Positions 33,521 to 58,246 of a stretch of 64,000 nt of DNA are shown here, piece after piece. The notes under the pieces were generated by a model. It made no database searches, was not told the DNA's origin, and worked only from the letters and a program-made list of their open reading frames with translations. A program made the translations under genes and the position numbers. Position 1 is the first letter of the stretch. Every line of letters begins with the position of its first letter. The DNA is taken from positions 3,475,042 through 3,539,041 of the forward strand of contig JAPNXP010000010.1 of assembly GCA_028753945.1 (NCBI GenBank). Reading direction: 5' to 3'. Origin of the DNA: Hexactinellida sp. DTS-2022. Lineage: Eukaryota; Porifera; Hexactinellida.

Positions 33521-34136
33521 CACAGTGGGCAAGTGGAAATGGAGCATTTTTCGACCACCTCAGATTGACTCTAAATTAATGCCATTGTTTTCAGCATAAA
33601 TGAAAACCTAAAAATCCAATTTATTGTGCTGACAAATATTCTTGATCAAGAGTTATGTATAATGAGATCATCATGTTACAACAATTCTAAAAAAAGATAT
33701 TTTTTGGTTTCAGAACTGCAATATCAAAGTCGATCAAATTATATAATGTTGATGAAATATTCAAGTTAGCTTTATCACGACGTTTCATACTCATTGGCAT
33801 TTATTGAAATCAATATACATGAATGCATTATATCTTTTATATAATCTAAAATTATCATACATTCCGACTAAAATTTTATGATTCGGACGCATTTAATAAT
33901 TTTCAATATTGTTCTTGGACTTTTGAGAGCAATCAGGAGCAATTCGTTTTTACATTTAAAATGAAAGGTTATGATGATATCTTCAAATTAAAAAGTAATC
34001 TAGATGCGCGAAAAGGCGCGATTGGGGTCATCTATTGACTTTAAACCATGGAAAATATTACATTTTTAATTAAGGAATAATAAATTTTATACAAAATAAT
34101 TTATTAATTAAGTACATAATATATTTAGCAGTTAAA

Positions 34137-34408
34137 ATGAATAACAAAGATGCCCTCGACTTCCTCAGTTGTAAATCAACTATTAAAGATGCAACTGAGC
34201 ATTCATTGATTGGTTTCAACTTTCCCAAAGTGAAGAAAATTTGATATATAGGAAATTTCGAAACCTCACATCCGAGAGAAGCACTTTCAGGAAAAACAGC
34301 GATGTATCTTCATGGGAAGACATGCTATTTTATTCAAGATCTGTACAAAATCCTTCAAAGAAAAGAATTTCGGAAGATAAAACTATTTTTGTAGCCGAAA
34401 TCTCGAAA
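34137..34408 (+). pseudogene. Broken N-terminal portion of the Transib transposase
   Basis: An ATG at 34137 opens a short frame (MNNKDALDFLSCKST) that ends at a TGA near 34243. An overlapping frame carries NLIYRKFRNLTSERS and continues to EISK before a TAA at 34409, in the same frame as the main ORF. The minus-strand relative at 62060-62510 has recognisably parallel sequence (KKRRFSSDADTKNF against KKRISEDKTIF), so this is real N-terminal protein now cut by a frameshift and a stop, unless splicing removes them. Confidence 0.6.
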
Positions 34409-34432
34409 TAATTTATTAAACCGCTCTCCCAG

Positions 34433-36262
34433 TTGACTATTAAGGGATTGAAAGTTCGATTATCTCCTCTAATAAATTTGATCAAAACACTAGCTGCGAA
34501 AGAAGATGTTGATTGTAAGAATATATATATCGCTTCGTATGGTCTTCAGTTAGTCTCTAGTTCCGAACATGACATAACAACTGCTTCCTTTTGCAAAGAG
34601 ATCATTTCTACAGGGTCTTTTGGTAAATCAGGTCAACGACTCCCAATTGACAAATCTGCATTCCTTTTAGACCAATTGGAAATCGGGAAGAGAAAATACA
34701 TCGATCTAATAAAACTGTTAAAATCAGAAAATATCATATTTCCTCCGTATCTAGAAGTTTCTCGTTACCGTACAGAAATCACACTTGCTAATGAGCTAGA
34801 GCTCGTTTGTATAAAGAGTGACTGTGTCATCGGAATTCGAATCCCATACGGTAGAATTTTACTGCAGATCGTTTCTAGATTGCTTGGGATACTTCCCAAA
34901 TTATCCGCAGACCGATTTCCTCTGAGCATGAAGATATCTGATGGTTTGGATGGTTCTGGCTCCCACCAAATCTATAACCAACTCCAACCTAGTCCAAGTC
35001 TCAGTTCAAAAAAATTCCTCTTATACGCTTTTAAAATGATTCCTATTCAGGACTGTGCTGGCTGTGAAATTTGGGTCAACACAATACCGAATTCACCTTT
35101 TCAAGTCAGGCCTATTGCCTTAGTTGCGATGAAGGAAAACGAAGATAATGTGAGATTTCTAATGGATTCCTATATTAATCCTGAAACATCAATCATCGAA
35201 CAGTATGGGATTGAGTTAGACCAAGGAATAATTAAAGTAAAAGTGCTCCGTACCATGTTTGATGGGAAAATGTCAGGTATACTAACGGGTGCAGGTGGTG
35301 CAAAATGCCAACTATGCACTGCTACCGCTCATCAAATCCATGATTTAGAGATAGTTAGATCAGGATTTCCCATGAACAGGACCATTTCGGCGGCCAAAGA
35401 AATATTTTCTCAAGTTGATAGGGTTGAATTTCTCTCACTTCCATCACAGAAGAGATTCGGATTGACACACGAACCAGTCTCCGATATAGACGTTATCTCT
35501 GCATCTCCACTCCATTCATATACCTGTGTTTTCCGTTGGTTCATGATACTTGTTTATCACTTACATTCTGGTTCAAGAAAATGGTCACCAACATCTGTGA
35601 AAGTGCAAACATCAATGAAATTTGTTCGAAGCTTTTTACAAGAGAAGACTGGCTTAAAGATTGATCAACCAACGAGTGATGGGGGGACGACTTCTACCGG
35701 GAACATCGCGCGACAATGCTTCAGTGACAAGAACAACTTTATCCATTGGATAAGTTCCTTGATTCCAACCGAATATCATAATTCTTTGATCAAGATACAG
35801 AGCAATTTGTCTGCCATTTTGCGCACTTTTAGCTGCAGTAGGGAAATCAACACAGATCAACTTGATATAGTTTGCCGTGAAACATACGAGTTCATCTTAA
35901 TCCACTTCCCATGGGCTAACATTACTCCATCTCTACACAAACTGTTAGCCCATTGCGCAGAATTAATCAAGGAATGCAATGATGGATACGGTTTGAAAAG
36001 TTTTTCAGAAGAGGGAGTTGAAGCTTCCAATAAGCTCATTCGAAGATATCGCGAACATCTAGCCCGTAAAAATTCCTTTCCTTTGAATACAAGAGACATT
36101 ATGGTCCGTCTTCTCAGTCAAAGTGACCCTGTATTGAACTCATTTCGGAATATCATAAGGTGTCATAAGTGTGGAGAGTTAAGCCATATCTGCAAACTAA
36201 GTTGTAAAACTACTAGTCCAATAGAGCAAGAACTATTATTTAATTCTTTACTAATTAATTAA
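34433..36262 (+). CDS. RAG1-like (Transib superfamily) transposase, catalytic core
   Basis: The 609-codon frame carries the RAG1/Transib core. By alignment from memory: KISDGLDGSGS supplies the first catalytic Asp (D170, RAG1 D600). TMFDGKMSG supplies the second (D277, RAG1 D708), and SEEGVEASNK the Glu (E530, RAG1 E962). The zinc ligands are also kept: C292 and C295 in CQLC, and H502 and H507 in HKLLAH, matching RAG1 C727, C730, H937 and H942. A C-terminal Cys/His cluster CHKCGELSHICKLSC (577-591) is an extra zinc-binding candidate. The enzyme would cut and paste DNA ended by CACAGTG. The frame starts after a TAA and the first codon is TTG, so the true N-terminus lies upstream (broken) or arises by splicing. 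The core itself has no internal stop. Functionality is uncertain. Confidence 0.9.
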   Translation: MTIKGLKVRLSPLINLIKTLAAKEDVDCKNIYIASYGLQLVSSSEHDITTASFCKEIISTGSFGKSGQRLPIDKSAFLLDQLEIGKRKYIDLIKLLKSENIIFPPYLEVSRYRTEITLANELELVCIKSDCVIGIRIPYGRILLQIVSRLLGILPKLSADRFPLSMKISDGLDGSGSHQIYNQLQPSPSLSSKKFLLYAFKMIPIQDCAGCEIWVNTIPNSPFQVRPIALVAMKENEDNVRFLMDSYINPETSIIEQYGIELDQGIIKVKVLRTMFDGKMSGILTGAGGAKCQLCTATAHQIHDLEIVRSGFPMNRTISAAKEIFSQVDRVEFLSLPSQKRFGLTHEPVSDIDVISASPLHSYTCVFRWFMILVYHLHSGSRKWSPTSVKVQTSMKFVRSFLQEKTGLKIDQPTSDGGTTSTGNIARQCFSDKNNFIHWISSLIPTEYHNSLIKIQSNLSAILRTFSCSREINTDQLDIVCRETYEFILIHFPWANITPSLHKLLAHCAELIKECNDGYGLKSFSEEGVEASNKLIRRYREHLARKNSFPLNTRDIMVRLLSQSDPVLNSFRNIIRCHKCGELSHICKLSCKTTSPIEQELLFNSLLIN

Positions 36263-36593
36263 ACTCTTAGACAAGTGTGGACTTGTAATCGTAATTGGAA
36301 TTTGATTATATTTCAAATAGAATTGATTTCATAATAATGTAATATTTTTGGAAATTTGCAATGACGTCATATAATTAAATTCTGAAGCCATACAAAAAAT
36401 TTAGATGCACCAATCGATTCAGAATGGTCGATAACCCATAGGCTAATAATATATTTATAGGTCTAGCAGCCACCTAGATACCTATTTCCACTTGACAGCC
36501 ACTTTTTGCCCACTGTGCTCCATAGTAGAAAGAGTGAGGAGTAAAGCAACTTCCCTATTAGCAACTAGTTTTGCAACAAAACCAGAGTTCTTA

Positions 36594-36838
36594 ATGTAAC
36601 GGTAACTGATTAAAATAACGTCGTAATGGCAATGGAATAAGTTTAACGTAGTAACGGTTACTGTGTTTCGGTAATGTAATGGTAAGAGTAACTGATTAAA
36701 GAGAACGGCAACAAGTTAAAGTAACGGATGTCCGTTACCGTTACTCCGCGACGCCCGTTACTTTTACTTTTTTCCGTTACCGTTACTTGTCGACACCCGT
36801 TACCGTTACTGTTACCGTTACCGTTACTAGTAACGGAG
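36594..36838. repeat. GTAACG-rich degenerate repeat
   Basis: Many copies of GTAACGGTAAC/GTTACCGTTAC occur, first in one and then in the opposite orientation, as in the subterminal zones of a hAT-like MITE. No clean termini were found. It is followed at 36885-36919 by the right end CTGGCGCCGCCTCTG of another hAT family. Confidence 0.7.
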
Positions 36839-37382
36839 CACATTACTGGTTGTACAGTGTGGCCCCCCTGAAATCCCCCCTGGGATCCCCCTACCTGAAA
36901 ATCCTGGCGCCGCCTCTGACAACAAACCTGCCAGAAAACAAGTTCTATTCCGAAAATGTATTAACCAGTTTATTTGTCGAAGGCTAGTCTTTAGGTGAAG
37001 TATAATACTTGACAACTTTTTCCAATTTACCACAAGAGAATGCTTATATAGAGCTGAGCTTTGTAGAGTTCAGATTTTTCCCATACTAAAAGCCCAGGCT
37101 TACTTTGTAAAGGTCAATTTCAAAGCTTGGGGAAAACTGAACTTTCTCAGTGCCTGAATACACACATACTGAAAAACTGAACTCTACTAGAGCTGAGCTC
37201 TATATAAGTAATTTCTTACCACAAAGTGTCAAAGACAACAATAAATATCATTTCAGAAATATTCCGATTCTAAATTGGAAATCATCATCCTTGTTTACCT
37301 ATTAAACCCGTTGGGTGCTGGCCTCTATGTGCATTTCGAATTTATCAACTTTTTGCTTATTTTGTAACAGCAACAATAAATA

Positions 37383-37523
37383 CAGGTGAACTCCCGTTAT
37401 AACGAACTCGGATATATCGAAATACCCGCTTATTAACGGAGCACTAAATGCATTAATTATTTTTCCGCTTATAACGAAGGAATTTACAGGTCACGAGCAC
37501 ATCGTTATAACGAGAGTTTACTG
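37383..37523. mobile_element. Tigger-like MITE, 141 bp
   Basis: Left CAGGTGAACTCCCGTTATAA and right TTATAACGAGAGTTTACTG are inverted termini with TA flanks. Internal words (CCGCTTATAACGAAG, GCACTAAATGCATTAATTAT) match the copy at 63683-63842. Confidence 0.85.
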
Positions 37524-37638
37524 TATTCATATTTGAAATTTGTAAATGCGGAATTCGTTTTCATACTTCTGTTTAAGAACAAAGGTAGTATAATAAAGAC
37601 GACTATGTTTAACATTAATCCAGTAAATATCATACACA

Positions 37639-37741
37639 GGGCCGGCAGAAGCGGTCAGGCCAATAGCTCAACCACTCTTACGTCACTAGTTAGGCCGGTC
37701 ATGTCGTGGCCTGACCACTATAACTGCTTCCACCGGATCTG
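37639..37741. mobile_element. Palindromic hAT-like MITE, 103 bp
   Basis: Left CAGGGCCGGCAGAAGCGGTC and right GCTTCCACCGGATCTG, with inner GGTCAGGCC and GGCCTGACC, form an almost complete hairpin. Flanks ATCATACA and ATACATAC match poorly. Confidence 0.6.
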
Positions 37742-38204
37742 ATACATACCTTGTATTAATAATCACGAGATTGGATAACATCTAAATCGAAATCCTGAGA
37801 CTATACTCTATTTCTAAGGTTAATTCAATTATTACGTAGGATAATACACATATTTACTACTTCCCAGAGGCCGAGGGTAGATGGTTTTACTATAATGTAC
37901 CTAAGCAAGGGTGGTAATCACGTAAAAGTTACTTAAGTGTTGCATAAGGAACCGGTCTAAGTGTGATTACTGGTATAAATTAAGCCGGGACGAATTTGCT
38001 ATGGAATAGACAAACCCATAGAAACGATTACAAATCTAAATTTAGCCCGGAACTAATTGTTAAATGAACAATTTATGACAAGTTGGTATCCGGCCGGAAC
38101 CATTTTGCAGCCGGAACAAATATGTCAGAACAGTACAATTGCACAAAATGACTTTTGAGAGGGTCCGCATGTATCTAACTAGCTTCAGGAAGCTGAGTGG
38201 AGTC

Positions 38205-38345
38205 GAACAAGGGGTCACTCGATAGGGTTGGAATAAAATTTGAGAATGGAATGTTGTTTAATTCCTACAACATTCCTGCGTCGTCAAGGAAAATTTTCTC
38301 AGGTGACCACTTAAATGACGCCAAATTTAGTGTTGAGTACGAATC
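38205..38345 (+). repeat. Solo GGGGTCACTCGATAGGG module
   Basis: CAAGGGGTCACTCGATAGGG, then GAATGGAATGTTG, CCTACAACATTCC, CGTCAAGGAAAATTT and AGGTGACCACTTAAATGACG. This is the module found inside both arms of elements B and C, here on its own. Confidence 0.7.
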
Positions 38346-38502
38346 CCTTAAGTGGTCAATTGTGGCCGACACATTGGAATTTGGAGTTGGAACTATATCC
38401 AAAAATACACTATTTGCATGAAAGAACAAACCTACAAAGTCTGAAAATTCTATATAAAAATTCATAATTATGCCTTTTTTTTGGTTGTAAGCGGCTGGAT
38501 TA

Positions 38503-38652
38503 CACACTGTTCTCTCTAATAGTCCACCAGTGGGAAATTGGCCCAAAGTGGACAATTAGAGATTATGGACTATTACAAATATATAAATAGTTGATTTGGA
38601 CAAGTAAATAAGTGGACTATTAGAGAAGTGGACAATTAGAGAGAACACACTG
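38503..38652. mobile_element. Mariner-like MITE, 150 bp
   Basis: Left CACACTGTTCTCTCTAATAG with GTCCACCAGTGGG and right GTGGACAATTAGAGAGAACA with CACTG are inverted; TA flanks both sides. The interior repeats the GTGGACTATTAGAGA word. Confidence 0.8.
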
Positions 38653-38818
38653 TACTAAAATCAACGCTTCAAATACTTCAATAGTAGTATTATAAGAATT
38701 TGAATAAATAAAAATGCAAAATAATCAGGAATCATTGCCTTGGTTTCACTTTACTGACTACAAATTTTCAGGTAAGCATGAAATTGCTGAATATTAAAGG
38801 TGAGGTATGTCACTAGTA

Positions 38819-39015
38819 CAGGGTTTTTTTTAAGGCCGATCTTGGTGTAAATTTTGCACCAAGATTTTTTGGAGTTACACCACGTTTCGGGTCGGCCTGG
38901 GCCTGTGTAGTGTTGAGCTACACCACGATTATGGGTCGGCCGCTGCCGCTGCACAGTTGAGTTACACCAAGGCCGCGCTGAGTTACGTCAAGGTCTCAAA
39001 CTTAAAAAAACCCTG
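38819..39015. mobile_element. hAT MITE, 197 bp, CAGGGTTTTT family copy 2
   Basis: Left CAGGGTTTTTTTTAAGGCCG and right CTTAAAAAAACCCTG with identical CACTAGTA octamers at 38811-38818 and 39016-39023. GTTACACCACG and GGGTCGGC words are shared with 21905-22056. Confidence 0.95.
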
Positions 39016-39279
39016 CACTAGTATATGTATTGAATAAATAAAGCTTAATCAGCACTTAAACTAGTGTGGTTTGTTTGAGAAAATGCTTACCGTAAATTCA
39101 GTCAGGTATAGGAATTTAATATTACGCATTATGGAACTATAATCAATCACTCGAGCGAATATTATTCGAATTCAATTTTGATGGCGGATTTATTATCAGT
39201 ATAGATAGGGCTAAAACAGATATATGTTTGGATATGAAGGGGGCTTTATTAGTGAAGGTGTGGGTCGAGCTAAGATGAA

Positions 39280-39377
39280 ATGTAATTAAAATATTGAAAT
39301 TCAGTTAAAATTATACTTTGGGAGCGTCCTGTGCAACCAAAAGAAGCATACTCCCATCCCATCTGTGAGGGGTTTTT
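39280..39377. repeat. Dispersed repeat end, CTCCCATCCC..CTGTGAGGG, copy 2
   Basis: The same word order as 25745-25825: GAAATGTAATTAAAATATTG, GCATACTCCCATCCCATCTG, GAGGGGTTTTT. Confidence 0.6.
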
Positions 39378-39446
39378 GATCTCGTGTTTACTTTCAATAC
39401 TGTAGAAATGACTAGTTGGAATTTTCTAGAAAAACAATAGATGCAT

Positions 39447-39597
39447 TATACGATCATACCTTGTACGTTCGGGGAGCGTATAATGGACCTTGTACGCTAA
39501 AATCGTTATACGTTATACGTCGTATGATGATTATACGTTACGTATGATGGCATAATACGTTCACCTATCGTATAATGGTACCATATATACGTTATAC
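39447..39597. repeat. ATACGTTATAC / CGTATAATGG word cluster
   Basis: About 150 bp dense in ATACGTTATAC, CGTATAATGG, CGTATGATG and TTGTACG words, in both orientations. It ends exactly where the P-element terminus begins (39598). Confidence 0.7.
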
Positions 39598-39945
39598 CAT
39601 AGCATTCTATACATAAGGCAATGGCGCGCTTAAAAATCTTTAGACCAGGGATTGGTTAGTTACTTAGAGTCTTAGAGAATCTACTATTACTATCGTGGTT
39701 ATATAATGTTTATGCTAAATATTCCATAATAATATGTAGGTTTCTAATGCATAGTATTGCATACGATTAGTTTAGACTATTTTGAATCAAATAAGAGACA
39801 GTTTAATGTATTTCTAAACACTTACAAGAAATGAAGAATAAAATAAATATCTATAATAATAAAACAAGTAGTAACAAGGATGTAGTATGTAGTAAATATA
39901 CAAGTAGTATTGTCTTTAAATAGAAATTAGCGTTCCTTTGCCTAG

Positions 39946-40155
39946 CAGTGAGAGCTGCGTTCTTAACTGGTTGGTGTCACCGCTCATCGTCTCCTCGTCT
40001 CCTCGTCTAGTTGTTATAGTAAAACTGTGAGAGCTGCGTCTTAACTGGTTGGTGCCACCGCTCCTCGTCTCCTCGCCTAGTTGTTATAGTAAATCTGTGA
40101 AAGCTGCGTCTTAACTGGCTGGTGTCACCGCTCCTCGTCTAGTTGTTATAGTAAA
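39946..40155. repeat. Three tandem copies of about 70 bp in the P element
   Basis: GAGAGCTGCGT..CTTAACTGG, TTGGTGTCACCGCTC, CTCGTCTCCTCG and TAGTTGTTATAGTAAA repeat three times. They lie at the 3' side of the transposase, near one terminus, a place where internal repeats of P-like elements may bind transposase; that role is inference. Confidence 0.8.
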
Positions 40156-40429
40156 GATGCAAACTTCTGAAGTATTTTTAGTTAAATTTCTAGAAGGTTA
40201 AGAAGTATTAGGAAGAAAATTTCTGAAGTTTTGAATTATCGCGACCAACTACAATGTTATTAAAATTTTCAACTTTCTTAGATAAAATGCAATTAGCCAC
40301 TGTTGTTAACAATTTCTTAAGAATATCCCATTTTGATGCCATACATATACACCACCCCCTCCATATTTAACTGGAATTTCTTTCAATTTAGAGCAATTAA
40401 ATGTCGACTAATTTTCTACGGCAAGGTCC

Positions 40430-43400
40430 CTCATAAAATCAACGACTTAAATTGGGATGATTATCGATCTTAATAAATAATTCGTACATTGTTACGACAG
40501 ATTGATAAACATTTTCTGATGGATATTTAAGGGAACATCTATCGAGCAGATTAATTAATGAAAATCATGAATCGTTATTAATTTGAATATCTTTTGGAGA
40601 AGTCAAAAAATCATGGCAGACTGAACATTCAGAGGATTGTTTAAAATAAGAAAACACTGCATACCCGGCAATATTGTTAAGGCATTCAATGTGAGAGTTA
40701 TCAAATATAGGGTTAGTAATGTCAAGCAACTCATCTGTAAAATATTCTAAATTAATTTCTGAATATCTTTCTTCGACATTATCATCTGCAAAAGATTTTA
40801 AATATTCTTTAATACATATCGTATCGGTGCCAGCTTGTTCAACAAATAGAAACTTAAGAAGGTTAGATAACTGAAGTTTAAGCTACTTTCTAAAATTTGA
40901 CAATATGATATGTTATAGTGGGACCCAGACATTTGGCGATAAAGTCCAAAGTGATGTTCTAATGCGTCGTTTTGTATTCGGGATGTCAGCAAATATTCAT
41001 AACCACATTATAAGGTTAATCTATTAATTAAGAATGGAAGAGCCAGACAAGTGTGTCTAAAACTGGTAAACGTTTTTAGGTGTAAGCTTACCCCTAGTTA
41101 ATGGAATAGCTCTCCAACAATCTAGCCATTTAACAACATTTTCCAAAAACACTAATCTTTCGTCGTTATAGGGAGTGGGGCTAGATATGGATTATTGAAA
41201 CGTATGTCATTCCCGACCCAATTAACATTAAAGATGCTCCAGATATGATTTATGAAGTTGAGAAAATCAACAGTTTGAAGGGATTTACCAATGTTAGCAT
41301 GGTTAATGAAACTAGAAAGACCGGCAGCTGTAGATTCATGAAAAATTCTCAAAGCCAAGTTCACATTTTGTCGCTCTAACTGAGATGGCCAACATGCTTT
41401 TGATGTTAATTTTGGGGCCCTCTTAATGATAGAAAATTTGTCATCTTCCGAAGATCGTCAAATGCTGCATAACATATTGTAGGATATCTAGACCCCGTCA
41501 GCTGGCTGGGATTCAAAATAATGTTGGCAGTAGGTATAGAAATTCTTAACTGAGTGCAAGGTAGATTTAGGGATTTAGATGATTCAATTGTACATTCATC
41601 AAACTTGGGATATACACTAACCAGCCAAATGTATTTGAACAATTGGAATTTTATTGCAGGCACAATAGTCGTCTGGTAACTTATTAACGGCAGTTTAAAC
41701 TACTCTGAAATGACTGTAAACATCTTGCTATAGTTATAAATTACAAAATATTTTGAATTCAAATTATTTTAGTCAATATCCATCAAGTGGCATAAGTAAT
41801 TCTGCCACGTGCCACTTGTGTCACAAGTGGCACAAATGGCAATGTGGCAGTATTTCAGATGAAAATAATCGTATGTTTTGAAATTATGCACCTAGAGTAA
41901 TTCGACCATGTGGAAGTCAAATCTGCAATCAGAACTTGTATATTATCATTACATCTTGATGATCAGAAATTATATATTTAATTAGCTAATTATATAGTTA
42001 ATGAGTTTAACAACTCCATATAATTGTAAATTCAAAAAATTTGCCATTTTATTATACTTTAAATATCGTATCATGTAAATAGCAGTGCTGATGTATCCAT
42101 CAATGCTATTATGCTGCTAGAAGCTAGAATGTATAAATACAAATTATTGCTGTTCAAATACTTTTGGCCGGTCAGTGTATATAAAAGTATTTTCAAAATC
42201 TTTTAAATTCAGCCAATTATTACGAATTGACTTGATAATATGAACAATATCAAAAAATAATACAAGATTACGATCTGTATTACAAGGATCTACAACCTTA
42301 GGATGTAATGTTTTCCCGTCATCTGAAAATAACTTATAAAGGTTAACATTTAACGGATAGTTGTCAGTACAAATAGCTTCGACAAAGAGACCACAAGTCT
42401 CGATATCAAATATAGCTTTGGTAATTATTGGATGTAAATAAGCAGCAGAAGAACCCAAAGGAATGAGGCGCACGATGGTTGAAAACTTTATAATTAAACT
42501 TGAAACCATCAGCGAAAATACGGTTGTTGCAGGATCTCTAGGATTATCAATTGCGCCCAAAATCCTACCTCCTTTATATGATACATCACTACGTATATGA
42601 ACTTCATCCATTTGAAGTATCACATGACGTTCCCTGTCACTAAACTTAGAGGTTATTTCCTTAAGAATTCGAAAATAGTCACCATCTATCCCCAGAGTGT
42701 TTTTAATATGAAGCAAGTTTCGCTTATGTGGCAAAATTAAACAACTAGATGACTGGATATTTCTATAACAAGCTGGTGATAATCCGTGAATTTTAAGTGA
42801 AAATACTTGAGTTAATTAATATATCATACCGCCGGTTATTTTTTGAATGGATCAAATTTGTCAGTTGTCCTACAATAAAACACAACAAAAATTTTATGGA
42901 ATCAGTACAAGTGAATAGATTGTCAGTTACGTCTAGATCTAGTGTGTCACATTCAACGAGGTTAATTGCGTTTTGTAGCTCATTGATAGCTAATTTGACA
43001 TAATTGTTTATCGAATGTTCAGCAGATGTGTGTTCACTATGAGTTGGTGTGGAAAAGTTATCTACCTCATAAAGTGAACTTACAATTTGGCGGGTGTCAT
43101 TAATTGAAATTCTTGAAATACAAATTGGAATATTGTTAATGCCAAATGCTTTGATAAACAAATCATGGTCAATTAAAACTGAACGTTCAATTATAGGTCC
43201 GGAATCAGTAATAAGAATTTTCAAAAAGTGCAAAAAATTGTCCTCGGAATGGTGAGAAATCCAACCGTTCCTGAGATCAATCAAATGCAACTTAGAAAGA
43301 AGGTCAGAAAATGAATGAACAAGAAACTTATCTACTGTTTCTTCGTTATCATCAGCTAAGCTATGAGTGTAGGCACTTTCCATCATCAATCGTTCCTTGT

Positions 43401-43805
43401 CATCTTTTGAAAGTCTCTTCGCTTTTGAATTCGAATCAGATAGGTAGGAAGGATAGTTGGGAAATATGCTTGGAACCGCACCATTCTTTAGAGCCACTCT
43501 ATCGCGGGGAACAGTCATATTTCGCTGTCCATCAAAATATTGGTGTGATCTCTCGATGTCTCCATATCTGAAATGGTGTTGCATACCTAATTATAAAAAT
43601 TAAATTGAGTATACATATAAGGATGTGAAATTTCTAATTGAATACCTTCATATGTTTGTTGGCTTCATAATCCTTCCTTGGTCTAGGAATGACTCTGAAC
43701 CATTGTTCTCGTAATCGCTCATCTTTAGGAAATTGAAAGTTTAAGTAGAAGTATATTTGCCTAAATAGTTCGACCTGCAGCCTGGGACAAGACAAGACAT
43801 TCGAA
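40430..43805 (-). pseudogene. THAP-domain P-element transposase, degraded
   Basis: Reading the minus strand: a THAP exon (about 43805-43647) with FPKDERLREQW, a 58-bp GT-AG intron, then the rest of the THAP domain (HHFRYGDIERSH..AVPSIFP). A long helical/GTP-insertion-like stretch follows to 42793. After a frameshift near 42790 comes the catalytic part: ILQMDEVHIRSDVSYKGGRI with the first Asp, ICTDNYPLN with the second, and FDIVHIIKSIRNNWLN. A Tc1-like MITE (41615-42177) splits the frame. Beyond it lie FHESTAAGLSSF, FNVNWVGNDIRFNN, LEHHFGLYRQMSG and, near 40600, IAGYAVFSYFKQ with CSVC. A one-base shift at the intron acceptor also disrupts the THAP frame. The family is certain; the gene is dead. 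Confidence 0.88.
41615..42177. mobile_element. Tc1/mariner-like MITE inside the P transposase
   Basis: Left CACTAACCAGCCAAATGTAT and complement of the right end CACTGACCGGCCAAAAGTAT are inverted termini with TA on both sides (41613-41614, 42178-42179). The interior has a GCCACTTGTG/CACAAGTGGC hairpin near 41805-41835. Removing it rejoins ENTFI to YPKF in the transposase, which confirms the boundaries. Confidence 0.9.
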
Positions 43806-45099: not shown

Positions 45100-45690
45100 T
45101 TATTCAACTTCTGGAGACTCTAAAATTGGACTTCCTTCAAATTCAACGGGATCCTCTGTTGATGCTGTTAAGCTATTTGATGCTACGCGTATTGGGATTT
45201 CATTGTTCCCAGCTGGTGCTTGGTCAACAGCACCTGAAATTCCACTAAAAGCAGGGGTGTGATGGAACATCTCTGTTACCCGGCCTGCAGAGTCATAAAT
45301 ACCTGTATCTGTTGATATGTATAATGAGCATGTCTTCGTCTTCGACATGTCCAGCAGTGTTTGTACCCCCCCCCCAGTCTTTATGGCCCTAAAGCTTGCA
45401 TCAATTTTATGTTTGGCGTTTAGTTTAAGGTTGATCCATTTTTTTTCACGTCTTCTACAGCTCTGCCATTACCATTTGCTGGATTAAGTTTGACTACAAT
45501 GTCTCTGCAGATTTGTTTTTTTTTTTTTGTCAGCACTATTTCCTGAGCCTCTCAAAATCTCACCTGCTGATTCAATTTCATCAATGAGACTGCATTCTTC
45601 TTCTCTAGTCCAATTTGTTTTGTGGGTGTCGTCCATTTTTTTCGGTATTGTAAACTTATTGCAAGTACTCTGCAGCAATTTATATACACG
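45100..45690 (-). pseudogene. Harbinger-associated Myb/SANT-like protein, broken
   Basis: Minus-strand frames read NWTREEECSLIDEIESAGEI, later AVEDVKKKWINLKLNAKHKI, then AFRAIKTGGGVQ in pieces. Next comes a longer frame (45348-45100) with STEDPVEFEGSPIL. The order Trp-Thr-x-Glu-Glu...KKWxxLKxxxK...TGGG is that of the Myb-like partner protein encoded by Harbinger transposons, which helps the transposase enter the nucleus and bind ends. A poly-C run near 45368 and a T run near 45522 disrupt the frame. Confidence 0.65.
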
Positions 45691-46049
45691 GGAGGACGCC
45701 GACCTACGAAATCATTAATGACACTGTATATTTTCGTAACGCTAATGACGCAGAAATTTTGATGTCGATATGTTAATATTTTGTTTTAGTGAACTGTTTC
45801 ATGTTACAATATACAAAGCACTTGTTGTTTATATGTTTTGTTTAATCTTTATGTGATGAATGATTATATACAACTTATGCTCTTTGATATATAAATTTGA
45901 TTAATTGTATATTAGCGTTTAAATACAATCTTAATTCAACTAAAGTTATGAATAACAAACTGATCCCTGTAGTGTTTTGCAGCAAAATGCCCAGTTTCCT
46001 CAAATGCGAACGGTTCATCCATCATACTTGCATGATGATCAATAATGGA

Positions 46050-46440
46050 ATCTTACAACATGGGTTGCTTCCAAACAATAGCCATATTATGAAGAACAGC
46101 ACATGCAAGAATAATAGTGCAGACTTTATCTGCTGCCATGCGGATCTCTCCGTGAAGGCAATGAAATCTTCTCTTCCACCTCCCAAAGGTTTGCTCTATT
46201 AATACACGGGGTTTTTTGTGGGAATAACTATAATTCTCTTGGACATTTGAAGCAGGTTGCCGCTATGGAGTTAATAAATAGGATTTCAGCATATACCCGC
46301 TATCACCTAAGATATGCTCTCCAACCAAGAAGTTATTCTCCAAATATGTTCACCTGAGAGTGCTTCCAAATACGTGAGTCATGTACTGAACCAGGGAATC
46401 TTGCCAATACATCGGAAAATCTACCATCAGGTAGACTTCA
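46050..46440 (-). pseudogene. PIF/Harbinger transposase, C-terminal half
   Basis: In shifting minus-strand frames I read DGRFSDVLARFPGSVHDSRI, then LVGEHILGDSGYMLKSYLLT, IEQTFGRWKRRFHCL and VCTIILACAVLHNMAI. These match the DDE domain of Harbinger/HARBI1 transposases (PGS.HDSRI, LGDSGY, IE.TFG..K.RF). The N-terminal half is missing: the relic stops at 46440, where a GC-rich GACGGGGGGCCGGTGCACGC piece begins. Several shifts make it inactive. Confidence 0.8.
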
Positions 46441-46535
46441 TAGGCGTATAGTATGACGGGGGGCCGGTGCACGCACCGTCAACTAGTATGCATTACGGGG
46501 CGGAGGCCTCTTCGCCCCGTCAGCTTTCTGTTAAA
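46441..46535. other. GC-rich insert of unknown type
   Basis: GGCGTATAGTATGACGGGG, GTGCACGCACCGTCAACTAG and ACGGGGCGGAGGCCTCTTCG stand out in base composition from the surroundings. CGGGGCG...CGCCCCG pairs as a small hairpin. No termini assigned. Confidence 0.4.
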
Positions 46536-46589
46536 GATTCCGGAAAATATATAAATATATACAGAGTATGAAATCATGACTATTTCAAT

Positions 46590-47652
46590 CAAGAGTAGAT
46601 TTTTCCAGACCATGGATTACTTAAAGGCCATTGATTAATAGCTAACATATCTTTATCTCAATAGCTAGTAATGACAGACCTGAGAAATGCATTATAATTA
46701 TATAGGAAGTTTGGAACACGATATCAAGGCATACATAACACCCTTTAGAATGGTAATATATCATCATTTGATTACATAATCGCTATTTTTCGTGGTATGG
46801 GGGATTATCGTGTTTTTATAGCCTGCTTTTAACATGGTTAAACGCGTTATAAACGTTCAAAATTGGAACATGAGGATGTCCATAACTCGTTGAATGAAAT
46901 ATATAGAAATTATAAATGGAATGCTGACACATTCCTCGGTTGCCAGGGAAATGCATATTTCATAAAATGAGCCATAACTCAAAAACTATCTATTTTATGT
47001 AAACTATGCTAGTACTGATCTATCCGCAATTGGTAACTTCCTATTCATTGATAATACATTTTCTAGGCCTAACATCAATAATCTTTGAGATAATGAGATT
47101 ATTAGCACTTAATTCTTTATCTGGTAATACACTCATTATCTCAAAGATTATTCAACTTAGGCCTAGAAAATGTATTATCAATGAATAGGAAGTTACCAAT
47201 TGCGGATAGATCAGTACTAGCATAGTTTACATAATATCGATAGTTTTTGAGTTATGGCTCATTTTATGAAATATGCATTTCCCTGGCAACCGAGGAATGT
47301 GTCAGCATTCCATTTATGATTTCTATATATTCCATTCAACGAGTTATGGACATCGTCATGTTCCAATTTTGAACATTTATAACGCGTTTAACTATGTTAA
47401 AAGCAGGCTGTAAAACACGATAATTTCCACGAAAAATAGCGATTACGTAATCAAATGGTGATATATCACAATTCTAAAGGTTGCCATGTATGCCTTGATA
47501 TCATGTTCCTACTTCCTATATTATTAGAATGCATTTATCTGGTCTGTCATTACTAGCTATTGAGATAAAGTTAAGTCACCTATTTATCAATGGCCTTTAA
47601 GTAATCCATGGTTTGGAGTATTGGTAAGGCCTTATATAACGAAGGTCACGGT
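46590..47652. mobile_element. Giant foldback element, copy 3
   Basis: The most complete copy: the left arm starts near GACCATGGATTACTTAAAGG and the right arm ends CCTTTAAGTAATCCATGG with GGCCTTATATAACGAAGGTC. The arms of about 500 bp face each other around TAATGAGATTATTAGCAC and the complementary TAATACACTCATTA near 47100. GGAATGCTGACACATTCC and TTGCCAGGGAAATGCATA lie in each arm. Confidence 0.85.
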
Positions 47653-47896
47653 TTAGTGGATATTCTTGAGAAAAAACGCTTAACGCAATTTTTTAATGAT
47701 TTTTTGCAATTTGGGTGGGACGTGCGAGCATGTCTCTCCCAAAGAACTCGATTCTCCCTCGCACAATAAATCCCCATTCATCATTTCGTTGTTTACAATG
47801 TGACATAGTTTAATGCACGAATGAATCAGTTTTGACACAGCTAAACTAGTCTTAATAATTCGCACTAATAGTGCTCTTCACTACTTCATTTCCACA
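47653..47896. other. Spacer
   Basis: The minus-strand frame 47865-47680 (SKLIHSCIKLCHIVNNEMM) has no recognisable domain. Nothing else seen. Confidence 0.35.
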
Positions 47897-48199
47897 AATC
47901 TCACAGTGTGGAACCATGGGGTAATAGGAAAAATTTGAAATATCCAAATGCTAATTTAAATGCGACATTCGATTCTATAATGTTGAACGAATAGAAAAAT
48001 GTTATTGCCATTTACCTGGTTAAATATATATCATGCCTACACAGAGTCAAAGTTATGCATAAAATTTTAAAATTCAATTTCTGAAAAACCACAAATATCT
48101 ATTGTTAGCCAACTTTGCTATATTTAATTATGCTTGATTCTTTGGTAAGTCAAAACTTATATGTGTATTCTTATACATCATTTGATAGATTTTGACTAG

Positions 48200-49220
48200 T
48201 TTTCAAACTGAACTAACAAAGTGATAATTTTTTATGAATTTTCCTTTCGGGCTATTTTATTAATAACTTCATGCATTGTGGCAATTATTCCAAATGTCTG
48301 ATCTTAGAATGCAAACAATTGCGAGCTGAATTGTTTGCGTTTTTATGTTGTCTATTTATCTAAGCTTCGATTTAAAACATTTCTACGCCCGCCCGAAGGC
48401 GCCCAAATATATTTTCGAGCTAAAGTAAATAGTTGGTCAAGATATCGGACGCTTTTTCAATTTTTCCAATTTTGAACTTTCATAAAAATTAACTAATTTC
48501 CCTTTTAGTTGTAAACGAATAATGGTTTAAAATAATATTATACGGTTTTGCTTGAATAATAACTATTGTAAACTGTACTAGCTCATCAAATTTGACAATA
48601 TGAGTGAATTTGTTTCTAACAAAGACACATATGATACTTATGTAGCTAACGACGGAAGTATCATTATATCTGTACAAACTCTGATTGGAATTAGTCCGTA
48701 CACTGTGTAATAGCAACCCTGTACTGGTAAATCGATTCAAAGCTATAATGGTATATAAAGACCCGACAAACTGCGTACAAGACACATTATACAATAATTA
48801 ACTTAAGAAAAGCTATCAATAAATGTCAATTCATGGTATTTAGTTACTGAATTATTTGTATTAGCTTAACTTTGTTCTTGTTTCCATAAAAAATGTTAAC
48901 ATAAGGTAGAGCAGCTTTTGCAGTGTCATACATAGGGCGTAGCCTAGAGTTAATGATTGGTACTATGTATTATGACTATGAGTCATAATAAGTAGGGAAT
49001 TTTGGGACAATTTTGATTATGTTTAATAGAAAATACTGATTCTGTGTAAATTATTGGTAGAACCATGGCTCTATTAAACCTACCGAAGCCTACGCACATG
49101 ATACACGTTCAATTTTATTAATTATCATAAAATGTAGAGTGATAAATATTTGATTATTATTGACCCATATTAAAAATATTCAAAATAAATGAATGATGAT
49201 GTCATTTTCACATATTTCTA
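48200..49220. other. AT-rich interior, no gene seen
   Basis: GCAAACAATTGCGAGCTGAA pairs with TTGTTTGCG at 48310-48350 as a small hairpin. The minus frame 48794-48489 has no recognisable domain. Confidence 0.4.
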
Positions 49221-49221
49221 G

Positions 49222-49683
49222 TTGTTAAGCCACCATACACGATGCAACACAGTAAGATACACGGTGCAACAATGTTACAAGCAAAATGTTGCATACAACA
49301 CAATTTTCGTAAGACAAGTTGCATGCAACATTTATTTTCGTGCAACATTGTTGCATGGAAATTACTCTATTACACGTGGTAAATATATTATTTTAAATCA
49401 GTACTATATGTATAATCCCAATGGATTTGTTAATTCCCAATTCAGTATTGTGGATAAAACACACGTTGTCGTTTCCGCATTCCAAAATATTAAACTTCTC
49501 CGGAGGAAATTGCAATCGACCAGTCCACGCAAATTGAGATCTCATGGGTTAAAGCTTGGATCAAAATCGAGAGACGCAAAGTGCATTTCATCTATTGATG
49601 AAATAAATTTTTTAGTTGACACATCAAGTTATAGAAATTTCGTAAGGATGGATCGTCTATCCAGTGTTAAATTAATTAATTGA
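49222..49683 (+). CDS. Unrecognised 153-codon frame
   Basis: The longest intact frame in this element. The first third translates the terminal GTTGCA repeats and is probably spurious. From about residue 65 (NPNGFVNSQFSIVDKTHVVV) to the end the composition is more protein-like, with a basic stretch RRKLQSTSPRKLRSHGLKL. I do not recognise it, and it may be a chance frame. Confidence 0.25.
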   Translation: MLSHHTRCNTVRYTVQQCYKQNVAYNTIFVRQVACNIYFRATLLHGNYSITRGKYIILNQYYMYNPNGFVNSQFSIVDKTHVVVSAFQNIKLLRRKLQSTSPRKLRSHGLKLGSKSRDAKCISSIDEINFLVDTSSYRNFVRMDRLSSVKLIN

Positions 49684-52600
49684 TTAATTAATAATTATCA
49701 TAAGGTATAGCATAGCCTACTAAACATAAGGCCATTTCACTGAGCCAAATGCGCCTGGACCAGAGATAAGATGAAGGCGATTTTCTTATATACCCATAAT
49801 GTAAATATTTAAATTTTGATTAAAACTACAATGCTTATCTGGTTTAGAAATATAGTGAACGAGATTCGTCTATATAAATATTAGCTATTCTAATTACAAT
49901 TTCTATTTAAGGTTGCAGTATACCTTTAAATTTACCAATTTCGGGTATTTTGCCACTTATAGGTTTTATTTCATTTCTGGATAGAACAGCCTATGCCGCA
50001 TCTCTATTCCAAACTTTGTAGAAAAATATAGAAAACTTTTAATAATACCGACTTTTTTGTGACCTCCACCTAAGCCACTCCTGTAGGGGCTCATTTTTTT
50101 CTGACACCGCCATCTCCAGCCGCAACTTTTGTCAATTTGGGAAACACATTTTGCCTTCATATACAACCTAGAAACAAAATCTCAACGGTTTTGGACAGCT
50201 CTCAATTAGTTCTATCTTGTCTATGTAGCGAATTTCATTTGTGACTTTTCTTTCTAATTATATTATATTTCCTAATGATAAAAAAAGTGATGTCGACTGT
50301 TATTGATGAAAAATTGGACTCATAAGTAATCAAAAAGAAGTTGTACATTCACATGATATATTAGAAGCTTCTCTATGTAATAAAACAGGAAACAAGTCTT
50401 AATCATTAAGAGGAAAAAACTTGTGTATCCCAAGAAAGTGTGTTTATAAAAAATTTAAATTTTCTCCATGTTACCAAGGTCGAATATTATTGCATCTTTG
50501 GATAGATCTCGCAGCAGGGAATCTAAAACAAAAAAGATCTTTCAAATCTGCAAAAAACTTTAGAAAAAGTGCTTAAAAGTATACTGCAACCTTAATTAAT
50601 TCAATCACACTTTGCCTTATAATGCTAGCTCCTTGTTTATTTATATCCTGGACTCATACCCTACTCTTGCTCTGCTCCCAGATGTGCTACTGGATACTAT
50701 AGTGATCATAGTGGTGTTGCAGTATTTCACATTCCTTCTGGTCCGCAAGACATCGTCCATAAGTGGAAACGTTTTCTGCATAAAGATGGTGTGTATATAT
50801 ATCTTTACTAGCTTAATTAATTACTTTACCAGTTTTCCTTTAAACTTAAGCTTTATTAATAACATCACTTACATATATTAATTAATAATTACGTAATTAT
50901 GTAATTATATGCTAGATCTTCACACACTGAAAAATATTTTCGTTTGTGCTAAACACTTTGATCCTGATGATATCATTGACAGACACAAAATTATCTTGAC
51001 ATTGATGGCCAAACGAAGATACGACCAATAAAAGCTACATTGAAGAAAGGCGCAGTACCTAAATACCTTCCTGGTGGCCCAGATCGTCTTAATGATCACA
51101 CTATCAAGTATCAGCGGCTTGATAGAGACAAAAAGGAGCATATGATTTACAGATCCATGTATGTCAAGTTGTGCTAAATATAAATGTTTTGCATTTTAAC
51201 ATGTATTTTATTGTATATAGGCAATGAAACAGAGTATTGACTTGTACGAAGAAGAACAGAGAAAATTCACTGTCTCTAAATTAGATGACATAATCACTAA
51301 ATCATCTAACATTAAGATCACCAAGGATGGATTTCTGGCTCCTTGATACCACATTTATATTGTAAATCTGACATCAAATGCAGCAGTCATTCAGTTTCTT
51401 CAAGTTAAACTGTTATAATCGTGGAACCCTTGCGAATCTCTCAATCAGCTGTTTGTTTGAAAACCGATAGATATGAACATTGATTGATTAATCAACACTC
51501 TTGGAAAGTAGTTCGTCTTAAGGACCGAAATTACATAATGATGCCAGATTTAATTGAATGTATACTATAGTTCGTTGGTTAGAGTCTGGGGAAGCTTACC
51601 AGTTCATAGGAAAATTAACAGTTCAAATCTTCACGAGTTTTCACCATTCAAGTATTGCACTGCCTAACTTGTAGAATATTGAGCGGAGAATGTGGAATTG
51701 TCATCATTTATACAAATTGATCTTATTGAACACCATTTTGGATTATACAAACAAATGTAAAACTACATTGGTTTGTCAAGTCCTGGAAAATGAGAGGGCA
51801 CTTAAACAGTCTAATATTCTCAAGTCGATAATAGGAAAGATTATGTCCATAAAGATAGAGATTCGTTTATGGAATTTATCAGCAGCTTCGAAACCCATGA
51901 AGATGGTCTTTATCGGAGCCATCCTGAGAATTTTGATTTCACACATTATGTGTGTGGGCACTCTTTTGAAGTTTTTCCTGAATTCATACACAAGACAACC
52001 TCTTGCATTTATCGGAGGATATGCTGCCTTTCTTATTAAGGAAATTGTCTAAATTCTCAGATTTGTACCCCGATTGTTGTTCAGTACTCATAGAAAATAT
52101 ACGGAATTGAATGGAAATTGAAGACCCGGATTTTAACTTTTGCCTTTTGTATCGTGGCTGCTTAAAATGACCCTTCCAATTACGTGCTAAATGTGGTGTT
52201 TACACCTTGAAGAGTGTTTACAATGATGTTTTCAATCGGATTCAAGCAAATCCCTCCTAAAACTCGATAGTGAAAAGTGCTAAGACTTCGTTGATGAGTG
52301 TATAGATTGCTTAGACAGAAGGAAAATCAATTTATTACTTTAAATTTTAACAACAGTAGCCAATTGTTACTTAACAGCAACAAGGCAAAGAACAATAATG
52401 TTCCTACTAACTGACCCAAAGAAAATCATAAGAAATTCCTCTAAACATTTGCTTAGTTTTCATAATTATACTATCTAGTTTGCATGTAATAATAATACTT
52501 GAGCTTGAATTTATGTTGGGAGACAACTATGAACGATGTATACTACTTTGATATGTGTAGTTGATATAATGATTCTAGTATTAATCAAGTAATTGGTTAC

Positions 52601-53250
52601 AGTTAGAAAAATAAACCCGCCTTTATCTTATCCCTGATCCAAAGCAGTGAAATGGCCTTTATATAGTAGGCTATGGGTATAGCCATTTTTTGTATTCTTA
52701 GTTACCACTGGATATCTATATATTCATCCAAACCTCATTTATTCGGGCACTGTCGTCCGGAGGCTGCCCAGAACTAGAATTTACCCGGATCTTAGAAATA
52801 TAATGGTTAGTACATGTGCAATCCCAAAGTGTATAATCCAAATTTTCTAGATTCATTCAAAATCAAAAAACGACGTTAACGGGTCCTGGATAATTTATAT
52901 TTGTAGTATTTCTAGGAAAGGAATATGCATCAATACGATCAGTGTTTTTAAAACCGTGCTCAAATTTCTAATATATACATTTGTGTTCGCATTAAAGGTG
53001 ACTTGATTAAGAGTAGTGAGATTAAGTAGCAAATTAAATAGGTACACTAGAAAGAACATGTGAAATTTTCAATTGTTTGAGTAGGTGAAAAATGCAAACG
53101 AAAATAATCTGAACGCAACATTTCAACATACACGATGAAACTAAGTTGCATGCAACATTGTTGTATGCAACTTTGTTCCATGAAAAATTTAACATACACG
53201 ATGCAACAAAGTTGCATGCAACTTTGTTGCATCGTGTACGGTGGGCTTTA
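49226..53250 (+). mobile_element. THAP/P-like transposon II, about 4 kb, degraded
   Basis: Left TAAGCCACCATACACGATGC and the complement of the right end, TAAAGCCCACCGTACACGAT, followed by GCAAC, are inverted termini. Next to each end lie several GTTGCATGCAAC-type palindromic words (49240-49360, 53110-53240). It encloses a THAP-type transposase relic on the plus strand. The target duplication is unclear. Confidence 0.65.
50650..52262 (+). pseudogene. THAP-domain P-like transposase relic
   Basis: First exon remnant: TGYYSDHSGVAVFHIPSG with DIVHKWKRFL, the first half of a THAP zinc finger. After an intron-like gap, FVCAKHFDPDDIIDRHKI and LKKGAVPKYLPGGP complete it. A piece at 51220-51340 (DLYEEEQRKFTVSKLDDI) and another near 51710 reading IDLIEHHFGLYKQM, then VCQVLENERALKQSN, match the C-terminal part of P-type transposases; FIGGYAAFL near 52010 parallels IAGYAVF in the other P element. 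The catalytic Asp-containing block is missing, so the gene is both frameshifted and internally deleted. Confidence 0.7.
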
Positions 53251-53379
53251 GAAAAAAATAATAAAATTTATGGATTCTACGGAGTCGATTTCCTACCTGT
53301 ACTAATGCAACTTTTATACGTACCATTAACGTAAATACCTATTACCCCATAATCGCCATTTTTGCCACACTGTGTATCT

Positions 53380-53985
53380 TACTATTATATGGTCCTGTGG
53401 AAACACGTGCACTTCTTTTTAATTATTTTGGTTGTCTTAGATTGGCTTTCTTCTTATATAACTCGATGTATGTGTTGTTGACATAATTTTCCGACAACAC
53501 TTGTGCACGCCTGTCCTGGCAATTATCAACGATGGTATCACCTCTCTCAATGCTTGCCCTGTTGATGCCTTCTGCTCTTTTCTCACAAATAACCACTCTC
53601 GGGTATTCTTCTACTTCATTCTAACACAAAGGGCACATTTCTTGGCTCGCGCTCATATCAATATCTAATATGCTAATAGAAATATTAGCAAATAATTGGA
53701 AATAATTTTCAAAACTACATGGGAAAACACAATACAAAATATAACCAGTTTTATTATGTATTTCCATTTGAAAATTTATCATACCTTCAGCCGTAAACTA
53801 TAATATTTCCAAATTAAACAGTACTCAGTAAGCATAGCCGAGAAAAACCAGGGGTCACTCGATATGGTTTATAATGTAATTTCGTTACAATTACAAATCA
53901 ATTAGGCACACAAGTAATTTCGTGAACACAAAATAATGTCCTAAATTTATTTTAGTAAAGAAATAAAAAATAATATAGAATATTG
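53380..53985. other. Spacer with a partial GGGGTCACTCGATA module
   Basis: CAGGGGTCACTCGATATGG at 53849-53868 begins the module seen in elements B and C, but it is not continued. Otherwise nothing seen. Confidence 0.4.
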
Positions 53986-53989
53986 AAAT

Positions 53990-54066
53990 CAAGTACGCGT
54001 AGAATATCACACTAACAAACACAAACACAAACATGCATACAACAATCGAATTTTAATAATATAGAT
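53990..54066 (-). mobile_element. Helitron-like head, minus orientation
   Basis: Complemented it reads TCTATATTATTAAAATTCGA, then GTTGTATGCATG and GTTTGTGTTTGTG. This is the 5' head of the family described at 21284. Confidence 0.5.
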
Positions 54067-54084
54067 GAGTTCTGGTGTACTTTG

Positions 54085-55741
54085 CACAGTGGGAATTTTC
54101 AGGGGTGTAAGTGGAAATAGTAAAAACTATGCTAGATAGACTCTAATGAAGTATTATTGACATATAGATTATCGGTAGCTGCAAACTGAATGGCATTACC
54201 AAAAATGATGTACCTAGGCTCCTAAACGTAGTTCTAAACAATTCATGTTAATTCTGTCATATATTATACTTTAGGTTTGTTAACAAATTTTTTATTGTTC
54301 ACCCATGATTATATATACTATTAAAACACAAGCCTGGGTGTATATATATATATTTGTTTGTATGTTACGAGTTGATTGAAGAAAGTGGACGGTTTCCAAA
54401 TGTGATTTTTGGCATATAGGGGTACCCTTTGGCACCAGACAACAAGTTGAGGTTTCCACCGAAAATTTCTCACACCTCGACAAGTTATGACGTCATTGTC
54501 ACATTTCGAGAACCCTGAAAATTCACTTAATCGCACATAATTCGCGCCCTCTAAGAGATAAAAATCTGAAAATTTAATAGAACATGCACATTAATGATGC
54601 GGACACGTTGGTCATACCAGATCACCAATACGCTTACTCATTATCGCATGATGACGTAATCATTAAAATTTCACATTGTTAAATTCTACTATTTTAGGCC
54701 TATTTACGCTTCATAATCAATATTAGGAGTATGTATACCATGTACCACACAGCAACCGCGAAGCGGTTGGTGTGTGGTTCTGTTCCGCCGCGAAGCGACC
54801 TAGCAAGCGAAGCGCGCTAGTTGATAATATTTATTGAACAAGGTATAATTTTTTCAAAAATCCTAATATATATCGTTCAAAGTTATTAAGTGATCCACGT
54901 CGCGCCTTTATAAACTATTTTATAAGAATATTACATCACCTAGGTTTTAGAACTAGTAGAACCTAGTTTTGACAATATTGTTGAGATATCAGTATGTAAA
55001 ATATGTTACAATTAATTTTCCGACAGTTCAGCTCCCTACTAAACTTTAATTCATCTAATTGACACCGAATGTTTGATATTATTCAGATTCTAATTAATTG
55101 TAATCCATAACTCACTGGATTCGAGTTAAGAAATTCACAAGCTTCCTTGTTATACATAAGAAATAATTTTAATTGAAGGAGAATAATTTGTACTTGAATC
55201 ACTTATCTTAATAAATTAATTAATATTGAAAGAAAATATCTGTGGGCAAATTTTTGGGCATCTGGCATTTGGTTTATGTTGAAGTTAAATATGTCTACTT
55301 TATATTAAAAACACTAAAAATCCCCATGAGCCTGGACACGATATTTCCCATCATCTTGAAGGAGGGGGACTAAGTAAGAATTTTTTGTCTGAATCGTATA
55401 TTTTCCGTTAGCCACATCCCATAATCAATTTATACTGAGATGTTATTATGATATATAATATATATAATTAACCATGTATATCAGAATATTCAAAAGATAA
55501 GTCATTCTCAAGAACAGTGTTCTCAAAATCTGCAATGAAGCATTAGTAGCTTTCTATAACCGCAAAATAGAAATTCCAATTGTCAAAAATCTAATACATT
55601 CAATAGTCATAACAACCAAAATATTTCTTAGATTGGAATGAAATTATGCATTACTAGGTTATTTGATATTCTGAATTCAGGGCTAACCACGAATTCAAGT
55701 TTCAAGAGAATGATAATTTTTCCACCTAAATTACCACTGTG
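54085..55741. mobile_element. CACAGTG-ended (Transib-like) element, 1657 bp, non-autonomous
   Basis: Left CACAGTGGGAATTTTCAGGG and complement of right CACAGTGGTAATTTAGGTGG, flanked by identical 5-bp CTTTG at 54080-54084 and 55742-55746. GTGGAAATAG starts at base 27 of the left end and GTGGAAAAAT at base 17 of the right end. A CCACGTCGCGCC block at 54896 parallels 63068. There is no transposase. A Helitron-like repeat is nested at about 54309-54820. Confidence 0.85.
54309..54820 (+). mobile_element. Helitron-like repeat with GC-rich 3' hairpin
   Basis: Starts TATACTATTAAAACACAAGC with a TTTGTTTGTATG tract and ends ACCTAGCAAGCGAAGCGCGC followed by TAG, then T. TAGC and GCTA near the end can pair. 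CTAG followed by T agrees with the Helitron CTRR end inserted between A and T. Confidence 0.5.
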
Positions 55742-57835: not shown

Positions 57836-57989
57836 AAGTAATAGTACGTTTGGTACAACTTTCGAACGAATTTTCAATCTCTTTGTACGTGTACTAGTAG
57901 CACAAGTAAAGAAAAGTATGATATCCCGAAGGTTCGAGATACGGATGTCAAGTAACAGGGTTTCATACAGGAGGTGGTAGGAGAGGTGG

Positions 57990-58180: not shown

Positions 58181-58246
58181 CAATGGTGAAATAAGTAGTT
58201 TTGAGAGTGCTTCTTTGTGCTGTTGCTCAATTAATGAAGATAATAT

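Follow-up and report, generated by a model that had tools for sequence, protein, structure and literature searches.

Transib transposons with one short-spaced and one long-spaced end in the genome of a hexactinellid sponge

A 64,000-nucleotide stretch of the genome of Hexactinellida sp. DTS-2022 (contig JAPNXP010000010.1, positions 3,475,042 to 3,539,041 of the forward strand; the whole stretch is called the window here) carries transposons that end in the heptamer CACAGTG and have a second conserved block some distance inward. Transib is the transposon family thought to be ancestral to RAG1, the antibody-shuffling enzyme. We consider it very probable that the sponge elements are Transib cut-and-paste transposons with two unequal ends, a short and a long geometry read by one transposase. 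They have a RAG1-core-like DDE transposase, 5-bp target site duplications (TSDs), and ends that start with CAC and carry a heptamer, CACAGTG, like that of the recombination signal sequence (RSS). Almost all copies in which both ends can be read have one short-spaced and one long-spaced end. The sequences establish that the elements belong to this family and have 5-bp TSDs, that there are two spacings, that short ends, lying 5' of the transposase, pair with long ones, and that the block has changed jointly at the two ends.

Two end spacings and their pairing

Ends were counted across the whole genome (112.4 Mb in 18 contigs) with the pattern CACAGTG+N(2-32)+TGGAAATAG, written CACAGTGN{2,32}TGGAAATAG, and with its reversed form as a control. 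The pattern occurs at 318 sites and the control at none. Spacers of N{9,11} account for 166 sites and spacers of N{19,21} for 145, again with no control sites in either class, leaving 7 sites (318 minus 166 minus 145) for every other spacer between 2 and 32. Spacers tallied over the first 100 of the 318 sites were 9 in 1, 10 in 46, 11 in 2, 14 in 1, 19 in 9, 20 in 40, and 21 in 1. Because the block GTGGAAATAG begins one base ahead of the searched word, these classes correspond to blocks starting at about base 17 and about base 27, counted from the first C of the heptamer. A sister block, GGBAATAG, was found at 153 sites against 11 in its control, and the first 100 of these comprised 43 equivalents of spacers 9-11, 52 equivalents of spacers 18-20, and 5 others. 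All of these counts are lower bounds, as an exact heptamer and an exact block are needed and changed ends escape.

A preliminary description of the window had called for a genome-wide check of end spacing. That check returned two unequal spacings, with the block kept far beyond the first few copies. The same description likened the spacings to the 23/12 signal pair and their difference to one helical turn. Two alternative distances do exist, but the likeness is approximate, the block starting at bases 17 and 26-27 here as against 20 and 31 for RSS nonamers. The offset is indeed about one turn, at 9 or 10 bases depending on the family. Families also have their own versions of the block (GTGGAAATAGG, GGTCGATTAG, and GGGGTAATAGG).

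Pairing was scored among 300 listed sites of the 464, with 100 each from the 166 short, 145 long, and 153 GGBAATAG sites. Convergent neighbours, defined as adjacent sites that face each other at most 8 kb apart, consisted of one short and one long end in 53 of 53 cases, where class frequencies predict 25.6. Divergent neighbours, which served as the control, gave three long/long, three long/short, and two short/short pairs. Treating the 53 pairs as 53 independent events was rejected, as 8 of them measure 810-829 bp, 17 measure 1121-1171 bp, and 10 measure 1805-1829 bp. Most pairs coming from a few amplified size classes, with nonindependent copies inside each family, is what would be expected if the asymmetry were an accident of one ancestral element that has been copied along with no role in pairing. 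We regard this explanation as unlikely, on evidence from block letters and transposases given below.

Orientation was read from ends beside the 76 rows of transposase matches (200 of 311 ends listed). Among those facing in the right direction, the 5' end was short in 4 of 4 cases and the 3' end long in 5 of 5, which bears out the earlier proposal of a short end 5' of the transposase. Of the 10 transposase copies with fetched flanks, 6 had a perfect 5-bp TSD and an exact heptamer at each end. No acceptable end pair was found in the other four (L059/60, L061/62, L063/64, and L071/72, where L-labels denote genome loci fetched for comparison), and in L063/64 the 5' end was located by pattern, 2123 bp upstream.

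Within the window, the copy with a transposase frame has the following parts.

33521..36517, + strand: Transib element of 2997 bp, transposase frame broken upstream
33516..33520, no strand: left TSD CTCCA, the same 5 bases as at 36518-36522
36518..36522, no strand: right TSD CTCCA, matching the left TSD
33521..33527, + strand: 5' terminal heptamer CACAGTG
33533..33542, + strand: second block GTGGAAATGG, with its first letter at base 13
34433..36262, + strand: transposase frame P0001, RAG1-like/Transib, 609 codons, without an intact N-terminus
36481..36491, - strand: second block of the 3' end, GTGGAAATAGG, with its first letter at base 27
36511..36517, - strand: 3' terminal heptamer CACAGTG

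This copy had been described as autonomous, a label that the sequence does not bear out: the frame is preceded by a frameshift and by a stop codon in frame, and four relatives have frames of 708-743 codons counted from the first ATG. No other frame of at least 110 codons was found inside the element. Nor is a start at base 13 a trait of the family, as in 20 related copies (L039-L058) the left block starts at base 17 in 19 and at base 16 in 1. With an outlying spacing and a broken frame, the 33521 copy was rejected as a type copy. Right ends of the 20 relatives were chosen by best TSD match, so their TSD count is a best-of figure; a perfect TSD was scored in 9 of these relatives, all 9 with the left block at 17 and the right block at 26 or 27. 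At another locus, L025, positions 250-1667 hold a 1.4-kb element that has CAAAC to its left and right, a short block at 17, a long block at 26, and the right heptamer AACAGTG.

The second block and the transposase

The two ends of an element can be compared in register or shifted. In nine families, the 6 bases after the heptamer match in register between ends (0.76, P 4e-5), while bases 17-26 of the 5' end match the 3' end with an identity of 0.64 at offset 9 and 0.58 at offset 10, against 0.18-0.48 at the other shifts tried. Judged from these alignments, each end is a terminal part common in register followed by a block common out of register. The block also matches better within a family (8.56/10) than between families (5.71/10; permutation P 2e-5). 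In most families its letters have changed in step at the two ends, which reading by a single protein would predict, and this joint change argues against an asymmetry that was simply inherited and copied along.

These nine families were drawn from 12 elements compared by a motif-free test. The three left out were 33521, as an outlier, and the 54085 element and L033, both judged related to families already included. The family of about 820 bp was represented by the 5' end of L040 and the 3' end of L049 (the 3' block of L040 itself is at 26), and L073/74 and L077/78 were retained despite their weakness. Of the six elements with exact heptamers and a TSD, four have a best motif-free offset of 9 or 10, and in these the short-spaced end lies 5' of the transposase; the other two are L073/74 and L077/78.

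The two ends of L065/66 are identical over their first 16 bases, and the long end looks like the short end into which 9 bases have been inserted. Such a structure would suit a different role for the extra 9-10 bp, namely bending of the long end by an HMG-box protein, with block distance a by-product. The 23-RSS is reported to be strongly bent, with an arch in its spacer (PMC6941560, in part), and we hold bending to be a possible but rather unlikely explanation. Alone, it leaves the tracking of block letters between ends unexplained, and it is compatible with reading of both ends by one transposase.

Several observations weigh against that reading of the ends. The motif-free test gave a best offset of 9-10 in just 9 of 12 elements, some of which are not significant singly (P 0.26 for L065/66 and 0.06 for the 54085 element); the best offsets elsewhere were 14 for 33521 (P 0.13), -1 for L073/74 (P 0.22), and -2 for L077/78 (P 0.32). 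For L073/74 (5/10) and L077/78 (6/10), the block of the element's own partner end was not clearly better than those of others. The offset window for joint change was picked post hoc, with the permutation run over the same window. Among the 11 of 20 relatives of 33521 without a perfect TSD, 3 have no right block, and 2 have right blocks at 35 and 17 and no TSD. The pairing census is limited by admitting only exact heptamers and blocks, and the few size classes mean that a binomial P of 1.8e-17 for the 53 pairs overstates their independence.

The enzyme itself is assigned to Transib because the best solved relatives of P0001 are HzTransib (6pqn, E 3.5e-26), ProtoRAG RAG1L (3.5e-11), and RAG1 (6.5e-6). 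A profile of five transposase sequences matched 6pqn at 3.3e-44. Against PF12940, P0001 scored 23.4 bits, below the 25-bit cut-off, and L079 and L082 scored above it. Residues D270, D374, and E627 of L079, which alignments lead us to take as the catalytic positions, are invariant in 5 of 5 sequences. Families with clear blocks have transposases 46-57% identical to that of L079, and L081, at 43%, has only a weak block. Frames of at least 600 codons with no stop in the match occur in 20 of the 76 match rows, one of them the window copy that is broken upstream. Both retention of the 9-10 bp offset across transposases this divergent and persistence of long frames speak against hitch-hiking of an ancestral accident.

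What might read the block is suggested by the other end of the protein. A profile built from 14 N-terminal regions and compared with 177,635 solved sequences had as its best match the RAG1 nonamer-binding domain (NBD; 3gna, E 0.0077). The first 16 of its 19 matches were RAG1 chains, collinear with the catalytic part as in RAG1. In the five-sequence transposase profile, the alignment of the solved HzTransib chain starts only at position 170, past the NBD-like region. The similarity to the NBD is weak: 3gna alone falls below 0.01, the remaining RAG1 chains (0.045-0.29) represent for the most part the same protein, and ProtoRAG is absent from the 19 matches. On this profile evidence, the N-terminal region is a plausible block reader.

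Alternatively, the block might serve a host factor or a promoter close to the ends rather than the transposase. The 5' block does lie upstream of the transposase, and block reading by the transposase is a prediction. We nevertheless think this quite improbable, as both ends carry the block in a matching, family-specific spelling, short elements included, the protein has an NBD-like region, and an NBD equivalent is reported in Transibs (PMC9435367).

We favor, among these possibilities, recognition of both ends by the transposase. Each end has CACAGTG, about 6 bp common in register, and then a block of about 10 bp at base 17 (5') or base 26-27 (3'). The catalytic core would read the heptamer and the RAG1-NBD-like N-terminal region the block, so that a transposase dimer would grip one short and one long end, the long end probably bent. 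A difference of 9-10 bp, about one helical turn, would leave the block facing much the same way around the helix, and the asymmetry would favor pairing of an element's own two ends, in the manner of the 12/23 rule for RSSs.

Other elements in the window

CACAGTG occurs 15 times in the window, against 4.13 matches expected. Besides the copy at 33521-36517, its elements and ends are as follows.

47902..53374, no strand: 5473-bp member of the GGTAATAGG family with its short end on the left, its long end on the right, and a TSD matching at 4/5 bases
47918..47928, + strand: block GGGGTAATAGG at base 17 (short end)
53338..53348, - strand: block GGGGTAATAGG at base 27 (long end)
54085..55741, - strand (taken from the end types): element of 1657 bp, TSD CTTTG on both sides, long end at 54085 and short end at 55741
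54111..54121, + strand: block GTGGAAATAGT at base 27 (long end)
55715..55725, - strand: block at base 17 of the short end, decayed to GTGGAAAAAT
58180..63571, - strand: relic named in the preliminary description, 60% identical to transposase DNA at 59452-59911; 63571 is a 5' end resembling 33521
63034..63060, - strand: extra short end, CACAGTG + 10 + TGGAAATAAG, resembling CTTAACACA/CTTAACACATGGAAATAG ends, within the relic

The end positions given earlier were all correct, with block starts at 27 for 36517(-), 54085(+), and 53374(-), at 17 for 47902(+), 55741(-), and 63571(-), and at 13 for 33521(+). The block at 63571(-) is very weak and follows the heptamer TACAGTG. The short end at 63034-63060 was absent from that description, and its position inside the 58180-63571 relic means that elements may be nested around it. 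No TSD was seen at the relic ends 58180 and 63571, and no frame of at least 200 codons inside 47902..53374.

The window holds other repeats as well. A remnant of a different DNA transposon lies at 42144-43590 (- strand), where one of two overlapping frames has a TNP-like RNase H domain (PF21787, E 2.4e-11) and the other has no Pfam match. A separate repeat family joins 46604-47526 with 57387-57841 and 60511-61055, in inverted copies that are 85-90% identical, and a frame with a proline-rich tandem repeat is found at 12990-13463 (- strand). Genome-wide, telomere-type arrays of TTAGGG x4 numbered 0 and of TTAGG x5 numbered 1, against 69 for the reversed control GGATT x5.

Relation to other paired-end systems

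Uneven Transib ends are already published (PMC9435367; PMC8355894, in part). Asymmetric bipartite terminal inverted repeats (TIRs) are described for all of Transib Subgroup I and for some of Subgroup II (Tao et al. 2022, PMC9435367). As in the sponge, Subgroup I elements have a single RAG1-like gene and asymmetric TIRs, and they are further marked by a zinc-knuckle tail, CTT1, and by a zinc-binding-region segment lost in Subgroup II. A zinc-knuckle motif of the form CxxC...H...C occurs in 5 of the 8 transposase tails found here; it is absent from L081 and L082, and the L011 tail is incomplete. Its spelling, Cx2Cx3[GS]Hx3-5C, compares with Cx2Cx3GHx4C in RAG1L (PMC7204232, in part). Between two aligned stretches, the sponge profile has 47 positions where HzTransib has 12 residues, a segment we tentatively equate with alpha11-alpha12. 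Taken as sequence features, the tail motif, the extra segment relative to HzTransib, and the asymmetric ends tentatively point to Subgroup I.

Drosophila Transib5 and Anopheles Transib2, N1, N2, and N3 have unequal 5' and 3' heptamer-nonamer spacers of 12/23 +/- 1 (Kapitonov and Jurka 2005, per PMC8355894, in part), whereas in the sponge the block begins at base 17 or at 26-27 and is spelled GTGGAAATAGG, or a variant of it, rather than as the RSS nonamer ACAAAAACC, an identity we rejected on these letters. AanRAGL of Aureococcus combines a 13-bp element, 4 or 13 bp, and a 10-bp element with a 5-bp TSD like that seen here (PMC9435367); by our arithmetic this places the second of its elements at base 18 or 27, near the sponge values, but it has a RAG2L gene and other letters. 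V(D)J RSSs share the identical heptamer, two spacings about one turn apart, and a pairing of one short with one long signal; they differ in spacings 11 apart, in nonamer letters, in the presence of RAG2, and in belonging to a domesticated locus rather than a transposon. ProtoRAG of amphioxus has asymmetric 5' and 3' TIRs with two conserved elements and a preferred 5'/3' pair (PMC8289069, in part), but its spacers are 27/31 and RAG2L is present.

Other precedents are less encouraging. HzTransib, the closest solved match to the catalytic part of the sponge transposase, is described as having symmetric ends with little or no nonamer similarity, as are most Transib families as regards symmetry (PMC8289069, in part). 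Protostome RAGLs are proposed to be relatively insensitive to TIR asymmetry, and the amphioxus NBD to be auxiliary (PMC7204232, in part).

What is new here is scale: several families, long open frames, 53 of 53 short/long pairs among the listed sites, and blocks that change together. A literature search of titles and abstract openings, covering few subscription journals, found no comparable census of Transib ends. By contrast, animal genomes are said typically to contain a single autonomous Transib, or a few at most (PMC4411706, in part).

The preliminary description had raised the prospect of a paired-end rule in a transposon that lacks RAG2. The anatomy of the 53 convergent pairs agrees with such a rule; a biochemical rule is not shown by anatomy. 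A search with PF03089 (RAG2) gave no match in this genome but none in 14 control genomes either, so absence is not proved. It is possible, though we would not bet on it, that the sponge families follow a real paired-end rule like 12/23, carried out by an NBD-like domain without RAG2, with many co-resident families whose own block/NBD codes would prevent cross-mobilization.

According to one review, 12/23 pairing may depend on RAG2 having evolved later (PMC8355894, section 6, in part). The sponge elements touch on whether the rule depends on RAG2 or was inherited from Transib ancestors, and a genome with several long-frame families, clear short and long ends, and block variants offers natural substrates for that question.

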